This document shows positions 30,773 to 36,582 of a DNA stretch of 51,744 nucleotides, piece by piece (within the stretch, counting starts at the first letter, position 1; every line of letters starts with the position of its first letter). This DNA comes from Spirochaetaceae bacterium (GTDB lineage Bacteria; Spirochaetota; Spirochaetia; Treponematales; Rectinemataceae). The notes beneath the pieces were generated by a model. The model did no database searches. It had not been told where the DNA came from and saw only the letters and a program-made list of their open reading frames with translations. The stretch is from the NCBI GenBank assembly GCA_025355995.1, contig JANXYQ010000011.1, positions 1-51,744 of the forward strand, read 5' to 3'. Made by a program: the position numbers and the translations under genes.

Positions 30773-30802
30773 TTGACCAAGGACCGTATCCCGAGATATT
30801 AT
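30773..30802 (+). promoter_or_regulatory. sigma70-type promoter of the TPR-greA-VWA unit
   Basis: TTGACC (30773-30778) and TATTAT (30797-30802) are 18 nt apart (or GATATT at 30795-30800 with 16). The start of transcription would be about 30809, about 32 nt before the ATG at 30841. The rest of the 192-base gap back to rpe shows nothing else. Confidence 0.5.
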
Positions 30803-30840: not shown

Positions 30841-31779
30841 ATGATCGAGCAGGAAAACGTCGCCGTATTTTTGTCGAGCGCATACGAAAGCCTCAAGTGC
30901 GTCGACCTGCGCGGTGCGACCGATGCGCTCGAGCGCGCTCTCTCCGTCGACTTCGAGTCTCCCGAAGTCCTCTGGTCGCTCAAGTGCGCCAATTTCTGGT
31001 CCGAGCGGGTCGCCCGGATCGAAGCCGCGCCCAATCCCTTCGAGCGGGGAGAAAGCGCGATCGCCCAATGGAAGGCCTTCTCCTCCTTCGCTTCCAAGCT
31101 GGAAGGCGATTTCGAGCCCGCCCTCTTCGCCTACAAGAGCTATGCCTTCTCGCTCGCGCTTTCGCATTACGCGTCCCTCCCCCCCGACGAGAAGGAATCG
31201 CACGAGGCCGACCTCGCGCTGCGCGTCGGCATCTGCCTCAAGGGCGCGGGCGACTACGACGGGGCGCTGCGATCCCTCGAGGCCGCCGCCCGCGAGAGGA
31301 AGGAGGACGCCGAGGTCCTCGCCCAGCTCGCGGACGCCTACGCCCTGCAAGGCGATGAGCGCAGCTCCAAGGCGCTCTTCCGCGAGGCCTTTTTCGTCGC
31401 GCCGCAGCGCGTCGACCTGGAGCTCCTCGAATCGGGCCTCATCCGCCGCCTCGCCGCGAGGGTCGCCTCGCTCGGCTACAAGGGGAGCGAGCTCGTCGAG
31501 TGGATTCCCGTCTACGGCGCCGTCCTCGGCGTCTTCACCATCAAGCGCGAGCTCAAGGCGGTCGAGGCGGCCAAGCTGCGCCAATCCATCTACCAGCTCG
31601 AGAACGAGGCGAAAGAGGGGGGCGACGACAGGGCGTCCCTCGCGCCTCGCCTGATCAACCGCTATTTCTGGCTGATCGACCACTATATCGCGGCCAAGGA
31701 AGACAGGGCCAGGATCGACGAGGTCCTGCTCAAGGTCAGGCTGCTCGATCAGTCCATCTATAAGCAGTACACAGCCTAG
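30841..31779 (+). CDS. TPR-repeat protein upstream of greA
   Basis: 312 aa, no signal peptide or membrane segment, so probably cytoplasmic. Helical throughout; TPR-type pairs are clearest at about 10-45 and 115-200 (DLALRVGICLKGAGDYDGAL; AEVLAQLADAYALQGDERSS). The C-terminus (ERSIYQLENEA-type, LRQSIYQLENEAKEGGDD) is charged and helical. ATG at 30841 has GGAAGAGC just upstream; an earlier ATG at 30706 would place coding sequence across the promoter. The stop is 14 bases before greA, so the two are cotranscribed and may act together. I know of no function. Confidence 0.85.
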   Translation: MIEQENVAVFLSSAYESLKCVDLRGATDALERALSVDFESPEVLWSLKCANFWSERVARIEAAPNPFERGESAIAQWKAFSSFASKLEGDFEPALFAYKSYAFSLALSHYASLPPDEKESHEADLALRVGICLKGAGDYDGALRSLEAAARERKEDAEVLAQLADAYALQGDERSSKALFREAFFVAPQRVDLELLESGLIRRLAARVASLGYKGSELVEWIPVYGAVLGVFTIKRELKAVEAAKLRQSIYQLENEAKEGGDDRASLAPRLINRYFWLIDHYIAAKEDRARIDEVLLKVRLLDQSIYKQYTA

Positions 31780-31793
31780 GAGAGGAGAGCAAT

Positions 31794-34478
31794 ATGGCCG
31801 AATCGCAGATCGCCCAGAAAATCCAGGAGATGCTCAACGAGGAGAAGTGGACTCGCGCCTCGTTGAGCGCCTATTCGGCGGCCAACCTCAAGGAGCTCGA
31901 CGCCCTCGCGCAGGAAGCGCTGCGGGAGAAGATAATCGAAGAGGTCAAGGTGCTCTGCGACGAGCACCTCGCCCATACGAAGACGAGCATCATCGCGCTC
32001 TACCTGTCGGGCATCTTCGCCCTCATGCGCCAGCAGATCGACGACTCGGCCATGGTCGCGCTGCTCGACCTCTTCGCGGACAACAAGAAGTGGAGCGTCG
32101 TCGAGTTCGTCTGCCTGCGCATCCTCGACTACGGCGAGAACCGCACCGCCCTCCGACGCCTCGCCGAGTGCTACGAGAGCGACAGCCGCCCCGAGGACAT
32201 GTTCGCAATCTGGGAGCGACTGATCCGCGTCGATTACGAGGAAGCGGACATCGTCAAGGCCCTCGCCGAGAAGCGCGAGAAGGAGGGCAAGACCGACGAG
32301 GCGGTGGACTTCTACAAGAAGGCGCTCCACCGCTACATAAACAAGGGCCTCACGACCAACGTGAAGGAGATCTGGGCCAAGCTCGTCGAGTACTGCCCGG
32401 AGGACATCGACTTCTTCTTCCACGTCCAGCGCAAGATCGCCAAGCAGATTTCCGAGGACAAGGCGGCCGGCCTCCTCCTAGACCTCTTCCGCCACTACAA
32501 GGAGAAGGAGGACTGGAACACCGGCCTCGACATCCTCAAGGTCGTGATCGATTACGACGAGAAGAGCCCGTCGCTCCGCAAGGACGTCATCGAGTGCTAT
32601 AAGGGCAAGTACAAGGACCACTCCCACCTCGACGACTACATCAGGCTCTCCAACATAGCCCAGTCCTACCGCGCGATGCACGAGGCGATGGCCGACTTCG
32701 AGAAGCACATCGCCTTCGACGCCGGCAATTTCGTCTATCATAGGACCTGGAACATCGGCCGCATCGCGAGCATCAAAGGCGATGACATCGTAATCGACTT
32801 CGCCAAGAGCCGCGGCCACAAAATGTCGCTCAAGATGGCCATAGACAGCCTCACCACCCTCTCCAAGGAGCATATCTGGGTCCTCAAGGCCGTCTGGACC
32901 AAGGAGAAGCTCCGCGAAAAGGTGAAGGGCGATCCCGCCTGGGCCCTGCGCATCATCATCAAGAGCTTCGACAACCGGGCCGACCTCAAGCACATCAAGG
33001 CCGAGCTCGTCCCTTCCGTCCTCACCGCGAGCGAGTGGAACTCCTGGAGCGCCAAGGCCAGAGAGGTGCTCAAGACCGACTCGATCTTCGGCAACGCGAC
33101 CGACAACATCGCGGCCTTCATCGTGCGCGACAGGCCCCTCTCCTTCGAGGAGAAGGTCTACAACCAGTTCAAGGCCGAGAAGAACTTCTTCTCCCGCGTC
33201 CAATATCTCCGCGACTTCCTCGAGTCCGGCGAACCCGATTCCGAGTTCTTCACGGAGATGCTCGCGTTCTTCACGGGCTTCGTGCGTTCCTACCAGCAGG
33301 CCAACGAGACGGTGGTCGCCTCCTACCTCTTCTTGAAGGAGCTCGCCGCCAAGTACAGCCACCTCAAGGGCGCGGCCACCCTCGGATTCGCCGAGCTCTT
33401 CGAGGAGATCGAGGATCCCATCTCGATCTACGAGGCGATCAAGGACGCGGAGCTGCGGCGGGCCTTCCTCCTCCATATCAAGAACTTCGTCCCCGACTGG
33501 GCCGATATCTACGTGAAGCTCTTCCCGTATTCGCTCAACGCGCCCATGCTCGAGGTATTGAAGGCGGGGGGCTACGACGAGAAGCTCAGGCGCATGGTCC
33601 TCGACATCGTCGAGAACTACCGCGACCACCGCGAGGCCTTTATCTGGGTGGTCAAGAACCTCAAGGACGAGACCTGGTTCACGAGTCTGGGCCTCTCCTA
33701 CGAGAAGATCATGATCACCCTCGTCCACATACTCGACCTCACCTTCAAGGAGATCGACAGCCATCGGGACACTACCGAGAACCGCAAGATCAACAAGCAA
33801 GTGCAGGCGATACTCTTCAAGGACTCGGCCCTCGAGGCCTTCCTCATGGAGTCGAAGGCGGAGACCATTGAGCGCGTCTACACGCTCGTCGGCGACGTCA
33901 AGGACCTCGACCCCGCGCTCAAGCTGTCCCTCCGGCGCAAGATCATGGAGAAGTTCCCCGAATTCCACTTCGGCGGAGAAGAAGAGAAGATGGTCGTCTC
34001 GCGCGGGCTCATGGTCACTTCCGACAAGTACAGCGAGAAGCAGGACCTCCTGGCCGAGATCCTCAATATCGAGGTGCCGACCAACCAGAAGGAGATCGCC
34101 TACGCGCTCTCCCTGGGCGACCTCCGCGAGAACGCCGAGTACAAGGCCGCGAAGGAGAAGCAGGACGAGCTCAACTCCAAGGTCGCGAAGCTCAAGAACG
34201 AGATCGAGCGCGCGCAGATCTTCGACAAGTCCTCCGTCTCCGTGAACAAGGTATCCTTCGGGACGATCGTGAAGCTCACGAACGAGATCTCCGGCGAGCC
34301 GGAAGCCTACACGATCCTGGGACCATGGGAATCCGACCCCTCGAACAACGTCATCTCCTACCTTTCGCCCCTCGGCAAGAAGCTCCTCAACCACAAGCCC
34401 GGAGAGCACCTGAGCTTCCTAATCCACGAGCGCAAGTTCCAATACAAGGTCGAGCAGATCGAGGCCGCCAAGCTCTGA
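31794..34478 (+). CDS. greA: long-form transcription elongation factor GreA with a ~730-residue N-terminal extension
   Basis: The last 150 residues are GreA: a coiled-coil finger with the catalytic tip motif GDLRENAEY (775-783; D776 and E779 match E. coli D41 and E44) followed by the FKBP-like domain (FGTIVKLTNEISGEPEAYTILG, visible as two halves). It rescues backtracked RNA polymerase by stimulating transcript cleavage. The N-terminal 730 residues are helical repeats, with a small beta segment at about 310-350 (NFVYHRTWNIGRIASIKGDD, then IVIDFAKSRGHKMSL) resembling the Tudor/SH3 RNAP-binding modules of CarD or UvrD/PcrA. Chlamydia and spirochaetes carry such long GreA proteins; the extension has no known role. 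RBS GGAGAG lies before the ATG. Confidence 0.93.
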   Translation: MAESQIAQKIQEMLNEEKWTRASLSAYSAANLKELDALAQEALREKIIEEVKVLCDEHLAHTKTSIIALYLSGIFALMRQQIDDSAMVALLDLFADNKKWSVVEFVCLRILDYGENRTALRRLAECYESDSRPEDMFAIWERLIRVDYEEADIVKALAEKREKEGKTDEAVDFYKKALHRYINKGLTTNVKEIWAKLVEYCPEDIDFFFHVQRKIAKQISEDKAAGLLLDLFRHYKEKEDWNTGLDILKVVIDYDEKSPSLRKDVIECYKGKYKDHSHLDDYIRLSNIAQSYRAMHEAMADFEKHIAFDAGNFVYHRTWNIGRIASIKGDDIVIDFAKSRGHKMSLKMAIDSLTTLSKEHIWVLKAVWTKEKLREKVKGDPAWALRIIIKSFDNRADLKHIKAELVPSVLTASEWNSWSAKAREVLKTDSIFGNATDNIAAFIVRDRPLSFEEKVYNQFKAEKNFFSRVQYLRDFLESGEPDSEFFTEMLAFFTGFVRSYQQANETVVASYLFLKELAAKYSHLKGAATLGFAELFEEIEDPISIYEAIKDAELRRAFLLHIKNFVPDWADIYVKLFPYSLNAPMLEVLKAGGYDEKLRRMVLDIVENYRDHREAFIWVVKNLKDETWFTSLGLSYEKIMITLVHILDLTFKEIDSHRDTTENRKINKQVQAILFKDSALEAFLMESKAETIERVYTLVGDVKDLDPALKLSLRRKIMEKFPEFHFGGEEEKMVVSRGLMVTSDKYSEKQDLLAEILNIEVPTNQKEIAYALSLGDLRENAEYKAAKEKQDELNSKVAKLKNEIERAQIFDKSSVSVNKVSFGTIVKLTNEISGEPEAYTILGPWESDPSNNVISYLSPLGKKLLNHKPGEHLSFLIHERKFQYKVEQIEAAKL

Positions 34479-34506: not shown

Positions 34507-36582
34507 ATGGCGAAAAGACATTTCGCGGCCGCGGCCGCATTAGCACTCGCGCTCGCGGCCGCCCTCCCGGCCGCCGTCCCGGCCGCCGTCCCGGCGAAGG
34601 CCGCGCCGGCACCCGCCCAGGCTCGGCCCGAGGGCGAATCGGACGCCGCCGACGTCATCGTCCTCCTCGACGTCTCGCAGAGCGCCCTGCCCTATTTCCA
34701 GGACGTCACCGATTACGTCGTGTCGTCGGTGGTAAAGGACTACCTGCGTTACGGCGATACCTTCCACCTGCTCAGCTTCGGAGAGACCACGCAATCGGAG
34801 ATCGCCCAACGCATGTCGAGCGAGGCCGACGTGAAGTCGGTGCTCGGCAGGCTCTACCTCCTATACCCCCTCGCCCGGTACAGCGACCTCGTGGGCGCGC
34901 TCGGCTACCTCTACCAGTATACGGCCGACCTCCCCGAGTCGAGGCGCAAGGTGGTCGTCGTCATCACCGACGGAGTCCATAATCCGCCCCCGTCCAGCTC
35001 CACCTTCGGGCTGCCCCCCGACAAGGTCCAGGCCGAGATCGAGGCCGCGGCCGCGAGGATCCGCGCCAACGGCTGGCCCGTCAATATCATCAAGCTGCCC
35101 TTCCCCAAGCCTGGAGAGCCGGGCGCGCCTTCCTCCGGGAGCGCCGAGGCGCAGGGCAAGTCCTATATCGAATCGGTCGCCAAGGCCCTCGGCGCGGAAG
35201 TCTCCGAGTTCTCGCGCGACGGAAAGGCCGACATCGCGAGGAAGAGCCTTGCCCTCCCCTCCGCGGCATTCCCCGGCCCCCTCGGCAAGAAGGACTACTC
35301 CTTCTCCTTCCCCCTCAAGCTGAGCAACGGTTCGGATTCGCCCGTCGGGCTCGAGCTGGACCGGGTCCGGCTAGGCGACGCCGACATCTTGACCAAGAAA
35401 GCCTTCCTTACCCTCCAGAGCGGCAGGACGGGCACCCTGGACGTCCCCGTCCTCATACCCGATTCCGTGCCGCAAGGGGAGGCCAAGCTCGAGGTCAGGC
35501 TGCACTTCGCCAACGGCGTCCGGGTCAGCCCGGATACCGGCTTGCTCGACCTCACGCTCGCGCGCAACCCTATCGCGGCCCTCCTGCGCTCGGGCGCCCG
35601 AATAGCCCTCTTCGCCGTCGTCCTAGTCCTCGGCCTGGCGTCCATGCTCGGCATCGTGCTGATGCTCAGGCGCATGCCGAGGGCCGCCGAGGCCCCTATC
35701 GCCGCGGCCGTACTGGAGGCGGAGGCCTCCTCGGCTACCTCGTCCACCGCCGCCCGCGGCGCCAAGGCCGCCCTCGGAGCGGCCGCCGCTAGCTCATCCG
35801 CGAGCGAGGGCGAGCGCTCCGCCTCGGCAACGGCCTCGGCCAAGGAAATTGCGGCCGGCAGGAGGGAGGAAGCGGCGCGTTCCGCCGCCCTCCTCGCGGA
35901 GGCCGCGAGGGCCTCGAAGGAAAGCTCCTCGGCGAGGGCCCTGGCCGCGTCGGCGGGCGAAGCCGCTCCCGGGACCCCGCCCCCTCGCGGACGGGGAGTC
36001 TTCAGTCGCTCGAAGGATACGAGGGAGGCCTCTGTCGAAGGGAGCGCCGCCGCCCTGGTCGCCCAGAACAAGGCGGAGGCGGAGCGTAGGGTGGCCATCC
36101 TCGCCGAGGCTTCCGGCCGACGCACGCCGGCGGCCCGCCCCTCGAGCGAATCGGAGGCCAAGGCGCGAGCTACCGCCGCCGCCTACGCCCCCCGGGTCGT
36201 CAAGCCCGGCACGCTCGATGTCGAGCTCCGCGTCTCCGATCAGAATCCCCATATCGGCGCGCGCAACGTCAATAAGCTGTCCGCGGGAGGATCTAAATCC
36301 GTGGGCGGGGGCGCTAGCGACTTCCTCGTCTTCCTCGTCAACGTGCCGAGAAGGTCGGCCGAGCTCCACTTCGACGGGGAGAAGCTGACCTTCGTCCCGC
36401 TGCGGCCCGAGCTCTTCCCCGAGCTCCAAGGTCCCCTGGAGGACTGCCTCGGGAAGGACATCCCGATGATCTCGAGGTCCGGATATCCGCTCAGTCTGCG
36501 CTTCTCGGTCTACGAGAAGCCTGCCGACACGATCAACAGGCTGCTGCACTGCATCGATACCGCCGGAGTGATACAAGCCTAA
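34507..36582 (+). CDS. VWA-domain membrane protein
   Basis: 691 aa. Very Ala-rich leader (residues 6-30) as signal or membrane anchor; VWA domain (about 48-235) with MIDAS motif D55-V-S57-Q-S59 and VVITDGVHN (D155); a beta-sandwich (about 265-355); a membrane helix ARIALFAVVLVLGLASMLGI (about 370-390); a long Ala/Ser/Glu-rich helical, low-complexity segment (about 395-555); and a C-terminal domain (about 560-691) that looks globular, FHA-like in strand pattern at best. Metal-dependent ligand binding outside the membrane is inferred from the MIDAS. AAGGAG precedes the ATG. Third gene after the TPR protein and greA. The partner proteins are unknown. Confidence 0.85.
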   Translation: MAKRHFAAAAALALALAAALPAAVPAAVPAKAAPAPAQARPEGESDAADVIVLLDVSQSALPYFQDVTDYVVSSVVKDYLRYGDTFHLLSFGETTQSEIAQRMSSEADVKSVLGRLYLLYPLARYSDLVGALGYLYQYTADLPESRRKVVVVITDGVHNPPPSSSTFGLPPDKVQAEIEAAAARIRANGWPVNIIKLPFPKPGEPGAPSSGSAEAQGKSYIESVAKALGAEVSEFSRDGKADIARKSLALPSAAFPGPLGKKDYSFSFPLKLSNGSDSPVGLELDRVRLGDADILTKKAFLTLQSGRTGTLDVPVLIPDSVPQGEAKLEVRLHFANGVRVSPDTGLLDLTLARNPIAALLRSGARIALFAVVLVLGLASMLGIVLMLRRMPRAAEAPIAAAVLEAEASSATSSTAARGAKAALGAAAASSSASEGERSASATASAKEIAAGRREEAARSAALLAEAARASKESSSARALAASAGEAAPGTPPPRGRGVFSRSKDTREASVEGSAAALVAQNKAEAERRVAILAEASGRRTPAARPSSESEAKARATAAAYAPRVVKPGTLDVELRVSDQNPHIGARNVNKLSAGGSKSVGGGASDFLVFLVNVPRRSAELHFDGEKLTFVPLRPELFPELQGPLEDCLGKDIPMISRSGYPLSLRFSVYEKPADTINRLLHCIDTAGVIQA

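Follow-up and report, generated by a model that had tools for sequence, protein, structure and literature searches.

A long GreA of spirochaetes with a predicted alpha-solenoid scaffold and an internal Tudor-like barrel that may dock on RNA polymerase

Within the window (the whole stretch of DNA analysed, 51,744 nucleotides), a gene encoding a long GreA of 894 amino acids lies on the forward strand at 31794..34478 as a single uninterrupted open frame, and its product matches the NCBIfam model NF011309 (PRK14720). On the same strand, it is preceded by a gene for a TPR protein of 312 residues (30841..31779, with its ATG at 30841; TPR_19, E 1.9e-6) and followed by a gene at 34507..36582 whose product was assigned as von Willebrand A-like (VWA) by eye, not by family search; this downstream gene lies within 400 nt of long greA in 38 of the 46 loci with enough flank. 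Only 14 nt separate the stop of the TPR gene from greA, with no same-strand terminator-like site between them, and a strong forward-strand ribosome-binding site (AGGAGAGGAG, 31778-31787) overlaps that stop codon and precedes the greA ATG. Upstream of the TPR gene, the forward strand carries a sigma-70-like promoter match, by consensus only (TTGACC-18-TATTAT, 30773..30802). This organization suggests that the TPR gene and greA are likely cotranscribed. The pairing of the two genes, first proposed in a sequence-only reading of this DNA, was upheld in its relatives: a TPR homologue was found directly upstream and on the same strand in all 56 close relatives examined (of 80 fetched).

The C-terminal end of the protein, residues 740-890 (34011..34463), was recognized by Pfam, AlphaFold2, and Foldseek as a Gre domain composed of a coiled coil (residues 743-806) and a globular domain. 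GreA_GreB_N (PF03449) matched residues 740-809 with 57.5 bits and GreA_GreB (PF01272) residues 818-890 with 72.6 bits, both above their cut-offs; the 894-residue protein also scored 141.8 bits with TIGR01462, for which the cut-off is 139. With Foldseek, the Gre fold was matched to 9a7t (GreA; TMt 0.79) and 1grj (TMt 0.78). As the sequence-only reading had held, the catalytic tip of this domain is intact while the domain itself makes up only the last sixth of the protein: the motif GDLRENAEY (residues 775-783; 34116..34142) is complete, and its columns G775, D776, E779, N780, and Y783 are kept in 52 of 52 aligned relatives. D776 and E779 presumably correspond to D41 and E44 of E. coli GreA. Judged by its domains, fold, and acidic tip, the 894-residue protein is a Gre transcript cleavage factor, its cleavage activity being predicted from sequence. 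The Gre fold is common to long GreA, E. coli GreA and GreB, and Thermus Gfh1, and the tip of long GreA is GreA-like; however, these other factors comprise approximately 155-160 residues without a scaffold, in contrast to the 894 residues with a scaffold of long GreA. Production of a free GreA from an internal start at M740 was considered and ruled out; Met is found at this position in just 32 of 52 rows, and its ribosome site scores no better on average (1.84) than those of other internal Met codons (1.86; n=604), compared to 4.42 at the true start.

The remainder of the protein is predicted to be a helical scaffold that is interrupted by a small barrel. A full-length AlphaFold2 model, based on 52 aligned sequences, had a mean pLDDT of 86.1 and a pTM of 0.57, the latter value indicating that the arrangement of the domains is uncertain. 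A first alpha-solenoid spans residues 5-306 (31806..32711), as seen in model helices, a weak TPR signal at residues 119-184, and Foldseek matches to TPR solenoids; model helices define a second one at residues 361-720 (32874..33953). This is joined to the Gre domain by a flexible linker at residues 721-738 (33954..34007), with pLDDT values below 50 at residues 727-737 of the full-length model. A TPR-like helical scaffold had been anticipated from sequence and was recovered in the model; as no Pfam TPR family matched the scaffold above its cut-off (best E 0.016), the description "TPR-like" rests on the predicted fold. The full-length Foldseek search returned Ctr9, Ski3, and OGT with rmsd values of approximately 14-38 over long stretches, and these matches are taken to mean only that the model resembles a TPR-like superhelix. 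The barrel occupies residues 313-356 (32730..32861) and is composed of five predicted strands (313-316, 320-328, 331-336, 342-345, and 354-356) with pLDDT values of about 87-90 in the full-length model. An independent model of residues 288-440 (pLDDT 85.3, pTM 0.74) contained the same barrel, with a pLDDT of about 90 there. An SH3/Tudor-like segment had been proposed at about residues 310-350, with the absence of a barrel from a prediction named beforehand as the result that would count against it; both models place one there, and its assignment also draws on Foldseek, VIA-align, hhalign, and a sub-threshold match to PF21196.

The fusion of GreA to this scaffold is real. It is not the local oddity that it might have seemed from one locus, but a catalogued long GreA found nearly throughout the spirochaete phylum. 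NF011309 (PRK14720), the NCBI equivalog "transcription elongation factor GreA" of 906 positions, was matched with 1055.3 bits (cut-off 714) by residues 7-894 over model positions 6-905, and the N-terminal 735 residues alone scored 846 bits. Given this whole-length match, the fusion constitutes a known annotation and not a discovery. However, the NF011309 entry names GreA only; the Tudor barrel, the split form, and the TPR partner are absent from it. A related family, NF004969 (PRK06330; "transcript cleavage factor/unknown domain fusion protein"), which we take to be chlamydial, aligned with both the scaffold and the Gre domain of the whole protein (E 4.8e-55), with the scaffold alone (E 2.5e-22), and with segment 285-435 alone (E 1.6e-10). 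The NF004969 model is shorter, with 718 positions, and long GreA reached 187 bits against its cut-off of 697. A search confined to open-licence literature, and hence not proof of absence, turned up no publication that deals with the N-terminal region of long GreA; within that literature, the Tudor assignment, the stand-alone scaffold, and the linked TPR partner appear to be unreported.

Some match to the family was detected in 242 of 247 genomes of the spirochaete phylum, including all 182 with a completeness of 90% or more and a contamination of 5% or less. Fused and split classes were tallied by hand from the match coordinates in the 247 genomes. Scaffold and Gre domain were fused in 194, either in one frame or as one piece across the junction; the neighbouring split matches of G152 and G183 were counted among these. 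The scaffold alone was present in 37 genomes, ending near model position 693-736 (those of G072, G098, and G159 reach 765-768 solely through stop codons), and a separate Gre match was found in 34 of the 37, with none in G012, G044, and G163. The Gre domain only was found in six genomes (G025, G036, G122, G186, G213, and G225) and neither part in another six (G054, the match of which is a weak TPR, G114, G164, G205, G214, and G223), while four with matches at contig ends or as fragments (G033, G145, G207, and G208) were left unclassed. At the 11 scaffold-only loci examined (L162, L163, and L165-L173), the open frames encode 725-757 residues and end at ordinary stops, and the Gre tip motif GDLxEN is absent from every frame of the scaffold strand in all 11. 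The possibility that the scaffold-only genes are products of frameshifts or contig ends was ruled out by these stops, which lie inside contigs, together with the absence of GDLxEN and the separate GreA in 34 of 37 genomes. In a tree built from 44 scaffold rows with the Gre domain left out, the 11 scaffold-only rows fell on one side of a branch with support of 85/94, such that either a single fusion or a single fission would suffice to account for them.

The TPR gene accompanies both forms. By profile, it was detected in 29 of 43 divergent loci, including all 11 that are scaffold-only, where it immediately precedes the scaffold gene; in L152, L179, and L183 the match is present but non-adjacent. 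The other 14 divergent loci gave no profile match, and one of these (L150) is cut by a contig end. This conservation across fused and scaffold-only loci indicates that the tightest unit is the TPR gene plus the scaffold, with or without Gre.

Likeness of the barrel to the RNAP-binding modules of CarD/Mfd and UvrD/PcrA, as had been suggested from sequence, was recovered by structure comparisons, with modest scores, and by profile comparison. When the barrel segment was compared using Foldseek with 350,542 PDB chains, the first three ranks were taken by 4kbm (CarD on RNAP beta), 5dma (the PcrA Tudor; probability 1.00, rmsd 2.0), and 7egt (the UvrD Tudor with UvrB; probability 1.00, rmsd 1.2). 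The top ten further included 9dqs (UvrD1), 6aca (Mfd), and 6yi2 (UvrD), and 7pik (TnsB) likewise appeared; the rmsd of the barrel to 7egt, 6yi2, and 5dma was 1.2-2.0. With E values of 0.0076 to 0.08, none being 0.001 or lower, no match is significant by E alone. VIA-align gave Z scores of 7.0 for 7egt, 6.7 for both 7egs (the UvrD CTD on the RNAP lobe) and 9dqs, and 6.4 for 5dma; all Z scores were below 8, and eukaryotic Tudors and other small SH3-like barrels lay within 1-2 Z units. Structure alone is thus to be read as "Tudor-like," without saying which kind. The comparison with the CarD-CdnL-TRCF and UvrD families that had been recommended as a check gave a divided answer, positive for the Mfd RID by hhalign and negative at the Pfam cut-offs. 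PF21196 (PcrA_UvrD_tudor) matched at 14.7 bits and E 0.029, below its cut-off of 23.9, and PF02559 (CarD_TRCF_RID; cut-off 23 bits) was unlisted at E values up to 10 in the Pfam search. A profile of the segment run against PDB found 7egt and 5dma at E values of about 1, behind three unrelated chains at 0.07-0.19. With hhalign, 44 divergent barrels compared to 17 spirochaete Mfd RID sequences gave 89.7%, a value that none of 100 column shuffles attained (maximum 6.2%); for the reversed profile the value was 0.5%, and it did not exceed 1.3% in any of 12 scaffold windows lacking the full barrel. The relation to the CarD/CdnL/Mfd RID (PF02559) is accordingly one at the level of profiles, and the barrel of long GreA differs in being shorter and in lacking a helicase or a CarD C-domain. 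By comparison, hhalign reached no more than 21.8% between the barrel and three sub-threshold spirochaete UvrD tails.

The Tudor of spirochaete UvrD itself was above the cut-off in 0 of 39 genomes, and three genomes have sub-threshold matches that are Tudor-like by eye. The statement that spirochaete UvrD lacks a Tudor was rejected as too strong given these three, and UvrD-like Tudors may be under-detected in spirochaetes. Loci L113, L114, and L115, with open frames of 751-775 residues, scored approximately 22 bits, just below the PF21196 cut-off.

The five-strand barrel is common to the C-terminal Tudor of PcrA/UvrD (PF21196; 5dma, 7egt, and 6yi2) and long GreA, being only predicted in the latter, and comparison with PcrA identifies a candidate RNAP-binding face. 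According to one study, RNAP binding by the PcrA domain is severely impaired by each of the substitutions H681A, W684A, K712A, and L714A (PMC5397179). In HMMER alignments, these four residues align with H316, W319, H342, and M344 of long GreA, the equivalence of H342 and M344 being obtained via the T. thermophilus UvrD row in an alignment read by eye. Hence the H and W of the RNAP-binding face are kept, whereas H and M take the place of PcrA K712 and L714; the location also differs, the PcrA/UvrD Tudor standing at the end of a helicase and the barrel of long GreA inside a solenoid. Each of the four columns is invariant across the 52 rows. Among 44 divergent rows, H316 is retained in 43, H342 in 34, and M344 in 36, and position 319 is W in 27 rows and F in another 10; the change from W to F is found in 9 of the 11 scaffold-only loci. 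Of all 20-residue bins along the protein, 301-320, which contains the first strand and the HRTW motif, is the most conserved, with a value of 0.799 compared to 0.778 for the bin of the Gre tip. In two fused proteins of family f12 (L161 and L164), the barrel motif HRTWGxG is eroded, and docking may have been lost there.

A second study describes docking of PcrA on the TGE hairpin of RpoB SI1 (PMC8318588). The RpoB of this organism has NGE where this TGE aligns, and the position is variable among the 30 spirochaete RpoBs examined; docking of the PcrA type via the TGE of SI1 is thus unsupported. The barrel, if it docks on RNAP, may instead use the beta1 site of the CarD/Mfd type.

Gre factors enter the secondary channel of RNAP and stimulate cleavage of backtracked RNA. 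With its intact motif and fold, the Gre domain of long GreA would be expected to do the same and so rescue backtracked RNA, while the Tudor barrel would dock on the RNAP beta subunit and provide the scaffold with a second RNAP contact. The scaffold would tether the Gre domain through the flexible linker at residues 721-738, thereby raising the local concentration of Gre, and it could couple Gre to the product of the adjoining upstream TPR gene. Docking of the barrel on RNAP, with the scaffold tethering the Gre domain, is favoured by a little over even chances; a complex with the TPR partner would be a further element of the model. The occurrence of fused and split forms, in 194 and 37 of 247 genomes, respectively, is a Rosetta-stone pattern and was counted in favour of docking. 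Counted against it were the lack of any Pfam Tudor or RID match above cut-off, the modest structural scores, the degenerate RpoB SI1 motif, W319F in scaffold-only loci, the eroded barrel motif of L161 and L164, the low pTM, and the 14 divergent loci without a profile match to the TPR gene.

Tudor folds bind non-RNAP partners too, and the barrel may dock on a protein outside the RNAP core, such as UvrB, NusA/NusG, a ribosomal protein, or the upstream TPR protein; long GreA would then act as an adaptor that connects backtrack rescue with repair or translation, instead of as an RNAP factor with two contacts. In favour of this, the UvrD Tudor in 7egt, the closest solved match, is complexed with UvrB, spirochaete RpoBs do not conserve the motif on which PcrA docks, and the TPR partner gene is strongly linked; however, the strongest profile match is to the Mfd RID, a beta-binding module, and the fusion to Gre already puts the protein on RNAP, so that a non-RNAP partner is considered rather unlikely. 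It is improbable that the barrel acts as a structural spacer within a solenoid that has degenerated, with the scaffold serving mainly to position parts or to self-associate and the likeness to RNAP-binding Tudors reflecting generic similarity among small barrels. Z scores below 8, the many unrelated SH3-like folds within 1-2 Z units, and the failure to reach any family cut-off are all in keeping with a spacer, but the profile match is specific to the barrel window at the level of sequence, and a spacer would not be expected to hold the most conserved bin of the protein.

A function of the scaffold and its TPR partner outside transcription elongation, with the fusion to GreA incidental, could be argued from the 37 genomes with a stand-alone scaffold and from the 11 such loci in which the TPR gene precedes the scaffold and the Gre tip motif is absent. 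This is thought very improbable, given that the fusion is kept in 194 genomes with the tip intact in nearly all rows checked, and that the related fusion family NF004969 matches the N-terminal part alone. RNAP docking by the barrel with tethering of Gre is thus retained as the preferred reading. In one spirochaete branch, the scaffold and TPR partner would act from a separate gene beside free GreA, and this arrangement leads to the proposal that the scaffold is an elongation-complex module by itself. The term "multi-contact elongation factor" may consequently describe a two-protein system as well as the fusion, since the scaffold exists without GreA in that branch. More broadly, and as a tentative suggestion given less than even chances, spirochaetes (and, according to NF004969, another lineage) would possess a phylum-wide elongation scaffold comprised of an alpha-solenoid, an RNAP-docking Tudor, and a dedicated TPR partner, with GreA fused to it as an arm in most lineages and free beside it in the branch where the fusion was lost or never arose. 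If true, this scaffold would be a bacterial counterpart, in kind and not by descent, of eukaryotic solenoid scaffolds such as Ctr9.

The usual picture of Gre factors is one of small proteins that act alone in the secondary channel. Nearly all of the spirochaetes sampled carry the scaffold, mostly fused to GreA, and hence a large multi-contact machine may carry out backtrack rescue in most or all of the phylum. The barrel, with its H316 and W319, and the natural split forms make the question of docking directly testable, and they provide a testable function for the region that a catalogued protein family lists as an "unknown domain."

Departures from the intact Gre tip were observed at two further loci. 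In L160 (G052:C4:63977-66655), a fused long GreA, the tip is deleted, approximately nine residues being gone at the place of GDLRENAEY, and its sequence suggests a non-cleaving long Gre factor. The genome that carries the long greA described here also has a second, short Gre-like gene, L001 (G000:C46:28263-28478), located after a gene that is M3-peptidase-like by eye. Its Gre C-domain was matched with an E value of 3e-23 and its tip is without GDLxEN; it may therefore be a Gfh1-like or anti-Gre paralogue.
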